Source of the DNA: Aurantiacibacter aquimixticola | Lineage (GTDB): Bacteria; Pseudomonadota; Alphaproteobacteria; Sphingomonadales; Sphingomonadaceae | Length of the DNA stretch: 64,000 nucleotides | Assembly (NCBI RefSeq): GCF_003605475.1 | Contig: NZ_RAHX01000001.1 | Coordinates: forward strand, 1,612,001-1,676,000 | Direction: 5' to 3' | In this document: piece by piece, positions 24,704-40,548 of the stretch | Position numbering within the stretch: position 1 is the stretch's first letter | How the letters are laid out: each line of letters begins with the position of its first letter | Position numbers and translations under genes: made by a program | The notes under the pieces: generated by a model | What the model saw: only the letters and a program-made list of their open reading frames with translations | Told to the model about the DNA's origin: nothing | Databases searched by the model: none

Positions 24704-25050
24704 AGCGCGTTCTCCCACTCGCTTTGCGTGAAGCCGACCAGCACGTGGCTGTCGCCCTCGCGCTCCATCACCGGGCGCTTGATGAGGCTGGTATGCTCCT
24801 CCATCAGCGCAAGCGCCTTTTCGCGATCGACGTCCTCCTTCTGCGCGTCCTCGAGCTTGCGCCACGTCGTCCCGCGCCGGTTGAGCAGCACTTCCCAGCC
24901 GCAGCGGTCGGCCCAGTGGGAGAGCGTATCGGGCTCCACCCCTTCCTTCTTGAAGTCGTGGAAGGTGTAACCCAGCCCCCGCCCATCCAGCCATTTGCGC
25001 GCCTTGCGCACGCTTTCGCAATTGGGGATGCCGTAGAGGTGGATGGTCAT
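24697..25050 (-). CDS. ArsC/Spx/YffB-family reductase
   Basis: A 117-aa thioredoxin-fold protein of the ArsC/Spx family. The active-site loop is PNCESVRKA with a single N-terminal cysteine (C11). The arsenate reductase region KRPV near residue 91 is present (LIKRPVMEREG). The sequence is closest in layout to the YffB-like group of unknown substrate, so arsenate reduction is not certain. It overlaps the downstream glycerophosphodiesterase gene by 7 bp. Its promoter must lie within or near the 206-bp repeat, which starts 24 bp before its ATG. Confidence 0.88.
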   Translation of the reverse strand: MTIHLYGIPNCESVRKARKWLDGRGLGYTFHDFKKEGVEPDTLSHWADRCGWEVLLNRRGTTWRKLEDAQKEDVDREKALALMEEHTSLIKRPVMEREGDSHVLVGFTQSEWENALC

Positions 25051-25074
25051 GCGAGAGCGTCCTTTGTTGGCTTA

Positions 25075-25280
25075 GGGGTGTGACAAGTGGAACAGTGTCC
25101 TGGAGCAAAATGCGCAAGCTGTAACCCTGGGCCGCAAAAGTGAGACTTTTGTGACTCAATGTGTGACCTTCCAGCGAAAAGTGTGACCTTTCGCCCGCCG
25201 GAGTGTGACCTTTCAGGCGGCCAGAACTGGCACCTTTTGGACCGGCAAGTGTCACCCATTTGCGCCGGGATTGTCACCCT
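25075..25280. repeat. 206-bp dispersed element, copy A, with TGTGACC-like motifs at about 21-bp spacing
   Basis: This copy begins GGGGTGTGACAAGTGG and ends TGTCACCCT. It has the same length as copy B at 38741-38946. The first 56 nt match copy B at about 50 positions; later motifs stay in register although the bases between them differ. GTGACC-type motifs occur at offsets of about 88, 108, 130, 153, 174 and 197. It lies between two minus-strand genes, directly upstream of the ArsC-like gene. Confidence 0.85.
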
Positions 25281-25400
25281 GTTTGCCCATGCCTTCATGT
25301 CGCCCTGCTGGCACATGGCACGCTTGTAGGACAGAGCTCGCGCTCCTCCGATATAGGGGGTCAGCGGGCAGAGGCGACTGCCCGCTGTCCGCTGCCGATA

Positions 25401-38266: not shown

Positions 38267-38710
38267 ATGGCCGAGACGACACCACCACCACCGCAGGGCC
38301 AGGAGGCCAAGGGGGTCACGCTGATGCGCCCCGTCATCGTGGCGCTGCTCTACCTCCTCAATCTCGTGCTCGGCTTCTCAGCCATCGTCGGCCTCGTGCT
38401 CGCCTATGTCTGGCGGGCGGACGAGGACACGACCGCGTGGGAGCGCACGCACTACGTCTACCTCATCCGCACCTTCTGGATCGGGCTCATCGTCATGGTG
38501 GCCGCCGTCATCGTCCTGCTCTCTCTGGCGATCGGCATCGATGCGAGCTCGGACACGCGCGGAGCCGATGCCGGGATCACGATCGCCATGGTGCTGCTCG
38601 TCCTGTTCGCGCTCTTCATGCTGGCCTGGTATTGCATCCGCTGCATCCTCTCGCTGGTGAAGGCGGGGGAGCGGAGGCCCATGCCGAACCCGCGCACCTG
38701 GCTGTTCTGA
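38267..38710 (+). CDS. DUF4870-like membrane protein
   Basis: A 147-aa membrane protein with three hydrophobic helices (about residues 21-48, 65-91 and 103-131). The layout and the motif ALFMLAWYCIRCILSLVKAGERRPMPNPRTWLF at the C-terminus resemble DUF4870-type small membrane proteins common in this group. Its N-terminus is proline-rich (TTPPPPQGQ). The 206-bp repeat copy B starts 30 bp after its stop. The function is unknown. Confidence 0.8.
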   Translation: MAETTPPPPQGQEAKGVTLMRPVIVALLYLLNLVLGFSAIVGLVLAYVWRADEDTTAWERTHYVYLIRTFWIGLIVMVAAVIVLLSLAIGIDASSDTRGADAGITIAMVLLVLFALFMLAWYCIRCILSLVKAGERRPMPNPRTWLF

Positions 38711-38740
38711 CCGGCGAGCGGCGACGGCAGGGTGACAGCG

Positions 38741-38946
38741 GGGGTGTGACAGGTGGCACAGTGTCCTGGAGCAAAAACCGCAAACCGTAACCCTGGCCGG
38801 GCCAAACCGTGACCTTGCGCGCAAAAGCGTGACCTTGCGGCGGGAAAGTGTGACCTTTCGCCGCGAATGCGTGACCTTTTCCCACCGCCAAGTGGAACCC
38901 GCCGAGACGGCAAAGTGTCACCTTGCGAAGGCCGATCTGTCACCCT
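38741..38946. repeat. 206-bp dispersed element, copy B, with TGTGACC-like motifs at about 21-bp spacing
   Basis: This copy begins GGGGTGTGACAGGTGG and ends TGTCACCCT, matching copy A (25075-25280) in length and register. GTGACC-type motifs fall at offsets of about 68, 88, 109, 130, 151, 174 and 197, close to two helical turns apart. It lies between two plus-strand genes, whereas copy A lies between two minus-strand genes, so it is not tied to one gene orientation. Confidence 0.85.
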
Positions 38947-39049
38947 CTCGCTATGATCTGCAATGCTCATGAGACAGGAACTGCCACGGCGCGCACGATG
39001 TAGGAAAGCCCACTCGCCAGCGGCGGCCCGGCATGGCAGGATGCGCGCC

Positions 39050-40155: not shown

Positions 40156-40548
40156 GACAATTTCCTCGGGTTGCAGCGCGGAAAATACCGCCTGCACCCT
40201 ATCAACGGACGAGCGAGGACAATGGCCCGGACTTTGCGATGAGTGGAGTGGGTTGGGGCTGATTATGCGCTGGGTGGAGTGGAAGCGTTTGCGCGCCACC
40301 TTTAACCGCTCTCGCAAGCGGAGCGCAGTTCAGACGGTGCTGTCTGGTTTTCGGAAGAAGCGGGTGGTTCATCCGTCAAACGCGCATCGGCTGTCCGATG
40401 CGGTCCGACATCACGGGAGGCTGTCGCCGCCCGCCAGAGGGGCCCGGTCCACAGAGGTGAAGATAACGCGCGGCGGGCGGGTGGAAAGCAAAATCGGCAT
40501 GGTTTTCCCAAACGATTTGAGAGAACTGTCACTGTCTACCGCAATCAT
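40156..40548. other. Intergenic region without a recognised gene
   Basis: About 390 bp between the small disordered protein gene and the 57-aa membrane peptide gene. Base composition changes here from GC-rich core to the AT-richer inserted cassette on the right. No RNA gene, repeat or credible frame was identified. Confidence 0.5.

Follow-up and report, generated by a model that had tools for sequence, protein, structure and literature searches.

A 64,000-nucleotide stretch of the Aurantiacibacter aquimixticola genome (the window, C1:1612001-1676000 of the 2.55-Mb genome G000) carries two copies, A and B, of a dispersed two-box unit. On sequence grounds, its invariant left box is very probably recognised by TerS2, a protein resembling the small subunit of phage terminases. 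We favour, with less assurance, the view that the boxes are dispersed pac-like sites at which TerS2 would load the packaging motor of a gene transfer agent (GTA). The support consists of a conserved and dispersed box, its place inside terS2 itself, its covariation with a helix residue of TerS2, the co-occurrence of protein and boxes, reading frames that stay open as far as the box and in many cases beyond it, and the presence of a GTA cluster in this genome.

A two-box unit dispersed over the chromosome

Copies A (25075-25280) and B (38741-38946) are present as given in the preliminary description of this DNA. They agree at 50/56 bases at the start and at 73/150 of the remaining bases, and the reported motifs (GTGACC, GTCACC or GTAACC) do stand at matching offsets, starting at 25121, 25163, 25183, 25205, 25251 and 25273 in A and at 38787, 38809, 38829, 38850, 38871, 38917 and 38939 in B. 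The 206 bp assigned to each copy end at an arbitrary right edge, since both extend as far as a promoter-like right box (25325-25334, CTGTCCTACA on the minus strand, in A; 38999-39008, CTTTCCTACA on the minus strand, in B).

The two copies belong to a family of about 33. With copy A as query, 45 matches at E≤10 were obtained in G000, and a 23-base pattern of the conserved start, with at most 3 mismatches, was found at 33 places (reversed-pattern control, 0). A lack of further copies had been named as the result that would speak against the element; these 33, plus relatives in the genus and the family, were found instead. The second block, TGTAGGAMAGC, occurs at 29 places (control, 2). In a looser form it lies 90-268 bp from the first block in 24 of the 29 own loci examined, a range that disposes of the proposed fixed length. 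At the other five it was found at 528 bp (one locus), at 496 bp with a holin gene between (one) or not within 620 bp (three).

The conserved core is the 36-bp left box, made of two tandem TG-NNN-CA units followed by NGTCCWGR...AAAA. Alignment on this box of 29 own loci and 36 from other species, with 8 orthologous duplicates dropped, gave the consensus RRGGTGTGACARGTGTGACAGTGTCCWGRGGNAAAA, and the unit interiors contain near zero information. Extended to AAAA, the left box of copy A (25075..25110, plus strand) reads TGTGACA, TGGAACA, then GTGTCCTGGAGCAAAA, and that of copy B (38741..38776, plus strand) reads TGTGACA, TGGCACA, then GTGTCCTGGAGCAAAA. The right box, CTKTCCTACA, is promoter-like, lies on the opposite strand and is oriented towards the left box.

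The in-phase GTGACC/GTCACC-like array occupies 25121..25278 in copy A and 38787..38944 in copy B, both on the plus strand. GTGACC, GKGACC and GTCACC motifs number 60 in the interiors of 24 own units against 3.8 expected from mononucleotide shuffles, in a register common to the copies: counted from the start of the box, they lie at about 43, 65, 86, 107, 128, 151, 173 and 194, mostly 20-23 bp apart. The array had been taken for the core, but 11/24 units hold no array motif (one more holds a single motif) and what stays invariant is the 36-bp left box; the array is thus an extra, present in about half of the own units. The wider proposals, that the constraint on motif and spacing would best be explained by a protein binding the element and that this is no plain transposon remnant, both hold up.

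The genes downstream of the boxes have mixed housekeeping functions. Boxes also occur after recA and inside a 422-aa gene, both without a right box nearby, as well as after a GTA-type holin gene (PF11351) and inside a phage lysozyme gene (PF00959), where the right box is upstream of the gene. By eye, the orientation of the 33 boxes follows no clear replichore pattern, and no Rfam family matched the element at the gathering threshold. An initial reading as the termini of a transposon like IS21 or Tn7 was given up once the interiors proved unrelated and the places orthologous.

TerS2 as the candidate recognition protein

The 422-aa protein whose gene contains a box (G000:C1:1100769-1102034, minus strand) matches PHROG 4044, terminase small subunit, with E=4e-19, and is called TerS2 here. 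This link to a terminase decided the choice among the explanations weighed. No Pfam family matched TerS2 at E≤0.001 and no NCBIfam matched its 283-aa part at E≤1; a search of PDB sequences with its profile returned nothing relevant. Five fold matches in the viral set reach E≤0.001; three of them bear the name terminase small subunit, and the other two are unnamed. The AlphaFold monomer model places a helix-turn-helix (HTH) at residues 134-170 with a predicted local distance difference test score of about 96, and the predicted layout, an N-terminal HTH followed by a helical oligomerisation region, is that of a terminase small subunit.

TerS2 has 272 homologs at E≤0.001; among the 120 listed, the names are hypothetical, uncharacterised or HTH-domain. 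The viral collection gave 21 candidate stretches, none of which was confirmed as a relative, and 50,697 phage records contained no relative either, as would be expected of a host gene that has been domesticated. The box pattern is absent from the viral collection in both its GAA and its TGA form, and the TerS of Caulobacter phage Sansa shows no similarity to TerS2. The gene stands alone, away from structural genes. A box in the genome's own dialect lies within it in A. aquimixticola and in further orthologs; some orthologs have no matching internal box, for example those of G182, G183, G157 and G103.

Beside terS2 and uvrA (L293:2200-4038, plus strand) lies a gene for a 612-aa protein with a nucleoside triphosphate (NTP)-binding motif that looks NACHT-like by eye. 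An NLR-like system is reported to control GTA release in Caulobacter (PMC13236601, cited, like all papers below, from excerpts).

Boxes in relatives change their dialect together with TerS2

The pattern TGNNNCANNTGNNNCANNGTCCWGR was found in 29/40 congeners (reversed control: 1) and in 78/397 family genomes from 31/96 genera (control in 3); single family-genome matches may be chance, and some that were inspected sit inside unrelated genes. Congeners hold boxes at orthologous places. At pdxH and ilvA (30 genomes each, including this one) and after the GTA-type holin gene (30 loci), the two units of the box, where there is one, differ between species at the same place. Among the matches listed, the dominant NNN dialect is TGA in G000, G159, G160, G163 and G168, GAA in G014, G156, G157, G158 and G166, GAG in G153 and G162, and ACA in another genus. 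Exceptions among them are a GAG box in G159 and a GAA-type box at pdxH of the TGA-type G172, and within G000 the second unit varies (TGA, GCA, TTA or GAA). The right box, as TKTCCTAC, is upstream of the holin gene in 30/30 congeners read (L162-L191), with or without a left box.

Thirty TerS2 loci were fetched and 24 scored (G150, G161, G165, G171, G176 and G179 were dropped). The residue of the recognition helix that precedes QTAY/MTAY is R with TGA/TTA boxes (11 loci), A or P with GAA (10) and either S or H with GAG (3); for GAA against GAG, p=0.0035 with kinship ignored. Since the box is encoded inside terS2, the dialect can also be read from the protein. Both features were readable in 69 of the 120 listed homologs, where R goes with VT (15), A/P with VP (49) and S with AP (3), so that 67/69 follow the rule, kinship again ignored.

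TerS2 was counted present at 92 bits or more without an internal stop. Across 40 genomes, TerS2 and boxes occur together in 26, only one of the two in 3 and 3, and neither in 8 (p=2.7e-4, kinship ignored). An in-frame stop interrupts the TerS2 match of G150, and that gene also contains the sole box-like site (2 mismatches) of this genome. The TerS2-box pairs offer a natural series for a DNA-recognition code, with R, A/P or S at one helix position, in a family for which specific DNA binding is hard to show in vitro (PMC9611059).

Upstream of the holin gene (L162-L191) a GAACC-N5-GGTTC-like palindrome, perhaps the site of a regulator, often comes after the right box. After the holin gene at L189 and L190 (G182, G183) an inverted partial copy of the box unit opposes the left box, and a long hairpin would form. 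Upstream of ilvA in G150 (L120), a genome without dispersed boxes, there are tandem GCGTGACCTTTCC repeats.

The units appear built for transcription through the box

In the direction from right to left box, 50/57 copies have an ATG at a distance of 33-38 nt from TCCTAC. Between this ATG and the box, stops amount to 3/1616 codons in frame 0, as against 57/1601 in frame +1 and 38/1585 in frame +2. Frame 0 is open in 45/47 copies versus 13 (+1) and 22 (+2); the 47 are what is left of the 57 after removal of the 7 that lack this ATG and of 3 orthologous duplicates. The earlier statement that the element is not a gene was therefore half right, failing on this leader frame of the strand that runs from right to left box. 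Since the frame relative to the box varies between copies, conservation does not act on the peptide encoded across it. The distance from leader ATG to box is fairly fixed; its median over the 37 short copies is 77 nt.

With a codirectional next gene (32 rows, gene starts taken from a simple custom gene caller), 8 leader frames enter that gene in frame, 8 stop exactly on its start codon (ATGA) and the rest vary. Copy A is one of those that stop: its 83-aa leader open reading frame (25047..25298, minus strand) ends on the start codon of an ArsC family gene (PF03960; 24697..25050, minus strand). With a convergent next gene, 11/14 scored leader frames run in the stop-poor antisense register (p=7e-4; a few plus-strand convergent gene calls are doubtful by eye). 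The leader frame of copy B, 170 codons long (38458..38970, minus strand), runs antisense into the convergent gene at 38267-38710 (plus strand). A right box was found for 35 of 40 more loci from two congeners and two species of another genus; the 21 ATG-type units in those loci have an open frame 0 in 20, +1 in 8 and +2 in 18, a small set with poor discrimination.

Units without the ATG often have GCTCTTTCACAYCGTC at the same place, which we take to resemble the boxA signal of rRNA. The rRNA-type boxA antitermination element is a GCTCTTTNNCA-like sequence just after the transcription start and acts with NusB/NusE. Among 140 boxes deduplicated by sequence, 90 are of the ATG type, 16 of the boxA type, 3 of both and 6 of neither; the remaining 25 lack a right box within 260 bp. 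For boxes with a scored next gene, that gene is convergent in 13/16 boxA units versus 26/86 ATG units (p=2e-4, kinship ignored). The open-frame and boxA-like results indicate that transcription through the box matters, and no more than that; we infer that it is meant to pass through the box and beyond, guarded by translation or by a boxA-like element. Promoter-only, small RNA or terminator, uptake-sequence and antitermination-site explanations were weighed as well, and the terminase link decided against them.

Right boxes without a left box were seen in G000 at L145, L148, L150, L152 and L156. They are followed after roughly 80-140 nt by a shared motif near GCATGTGTTTCATCAACTTGC, and several carry a boxA-like sequence. 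Perhaps they form a second unit family with its own protein.

A resident GTA and a proposed role of the boxes in packaging

An RcGTA-like GTA cluster (G000 C1:2034467-2049109) encodes TerL, TerS, portal, protease, major head and tail proteins. The TerL profile matched with E=3e-162 (1.80 Mb searched), and the six cluster proteins submitted had PHROG matches. By eye, no replication genes are present within the cluster region, and terminase, portal, protease, capsid and tail genes stand together as in a GTA. The cluster's TerS (163 aa; G000:C1:2048618-2049109, minus strand) matches the HTH part of PHROG 4044 and shares 28% with TerS2 over 101 residues. The right box was not found in the 260 bp upstream of it. 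GTA_TIM (PF13547) was found in 0/40 congeners, with Caulobacter positive among 14 controls. Among 120 TerL matches listed there is no contig of the box-less G150 or G151, nor of the box-rich G168.

In the mechanism that we propose, the left box would be the recognition site of the chromosomally encoded TerS2, read through its HTH. TerS2 would thereby mark 33 dispersed places where the RcGTA-like GTA begins packaging host DNA, and would recruit TerL to the box. The right box would act as a promoter from which transcription always crosses the site in one orientation and continues into the DNA on its far side. Translation of the leader would guard this RNA from Rho; in other units, mostly those with a convergent next gene, the boxA-like element would do so instead. 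A motor that leaves the site would be well served by transcription in its own direction. The boxes at GTA-type holin and phage lysozyme genes also speak for this role. The array could provide extra, weaker sites two helical turns apart, suiting DNA laid along a ring of HTH domains; DNA wrapping around the TerS ring is debated (PMC9611059). It is plausible, and for us evenly balanced, that Erythrobacteraceae GTAs are not random packagers and have dispersed transcribed pac sites and a second, sequence-specific TerS, code and sites having changed together repeatedly, so that each species exports a defined part of its chromosome. If true, some hosts choose the DNA they export, and the adaptive value of GTAs becomes directly testable.

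Several results weigh against this packaging role. A separate TerS that also belongs to PHROG 4044 is encoded in the GTA cluster, from which TerS2 lies about 0.95 Mb away. TM-scores of the TerS2 fold matches are low, and the PDB fold search gave no significant match (Sf6 TerS came fourth). Boxes occur without a close TerS2 in G162, G169 and G170, and TerS2 without boxes in G165, G176 and G179 (the last with a shortened variant box at the holin gene). Two homologs break the residue rule (one Q with VT; P0050, S with VP), and the split between R and A/P may reflect two clades, kinship being uncorrected. The intervals between the 33 boxes are indistinguishable from random ones (coefficient of variation 0.83, p 0.18) and are no more even than chance would give. 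Packaging by itself does not predict open antisense frames. In phages SF6/SPP1, the TerS DNA-binding domain has little specificity for pac repeats in the excerpts of PMC4737164.

Alternative explanations

The main rival, in our judgement rather unlikely, is that TerS2 is a former terminase subunit turned transcription regulator. Sitting on boxes about 40-100 nt downstream of the start (200 nt in array copies), it would act as a roadblock or elongation switch for some 30 transcripts, with autoregulation through the box in terS2. The fairly fixed distance between leader ATG and box fits this, as do the many boxes that precede a codirectional gene, some with leaders stopping on its start codon; dialect covariation and co-occurrence would be expected here too. 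The functions downstream are, however, mixed and housekeeping, and boxes lie inside coding sequences (terS2, lysozyme). Moreover, many boxes face a convergent gene, where boxA or long antisense frames sustain transcription that a gene regulator does not need.

A second alternative starts from satellite islands, which divert phages with their own TerS. TerS2 might likewise steer the packaging motor of an infecting phage onto the host chromosome, the boxes serving defence or transduction and not the resident GTA. The lone terS2, not beside structural genes and adjoining the gene with the NACHT-like motif, would suit such a role. The presence of a resident GTA cluster and of boxes at GTA-type lysis genes makes it distinctly improbable.

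It is hardly credible that the units represent miniature mobile elements bounded by the two boxes: they are dispersed and intergenic, and the spacers are longer with a box (181-230 bp in most, versus about 80 bp in six species without, at pdxH; 194-287 bp versus 95-161 bp at ilvA), but the ends are invariant while the interiors share almost no information, unlike the similar interiors of a miniature inverted-repeat transposable element, no target duplications were seen by eye, the places are orthologous between species with a changed box sequence, and the right box stands at every holin gene read, left box or not.

Comparison with known systems

As a candidate packaging site, the box resembles the pac sites of headful phages (P22; SPP1/SF6), which are short, asymmetric and located in or beside the small-terminase gene; they are recognised through that protein (PMC9611059, PMC4737164), as is very probable for the box. 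P22 pac lies inside its terS (PMC9611059), as one box lies in the small-terminase gene here, and SPP1 pac has direct repeats (PMC9611059, PMC4737164). Unlike those sites, 10 to 33 near-identical copies are found on the chromosome, each in a transcribed unit, with dialects shifting with TerS2. The pseudo-pac sites of P22 in Salmonella are likewise pac-like sequences of the host chromosome that start packaging of host DNA (PMC11226127); they are chance look-alikes, about 10 per genome, whereas the present sites are conserved at orthologous places and follow the dialect changes.

RcGTA-like GTAs share with this genome a cluster of TerS, TerL, portal, protease, head and tail genes and an ectopic holin and lysozyme. 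In the excerpts of PMC6854486, RcGTA is said to package random DNA and its TerS to have no specific DNA-binding domain; in those of PMC6854486 and PMC7947584, GTAs package seemingly random host DNA from no known start site. Here, in contrast, both TerS proteins have an HTH-like region and one has candidate sites, and GTA_TIM was missing from the congeners searched. Non-random packaging in Dinoroseobacter shibae is reportedly the subject of a published paper. DNA-uptake-sequence dialects and phage stoperators are dispersed short sites that shift in sequence together with the recognising protein; the boxes differ from them in having another recogniser, in lying on a host chromosome and in being far fewer than uptake sequences. 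Dispersed sites of the present kind were not found in the open-licence PMC literature, and subscription papers may describe them.

Elsewhere in the window, the Rfam terC RNA (RF03067) scored above its gathering threshold at 40396-40455 on the minus strand.
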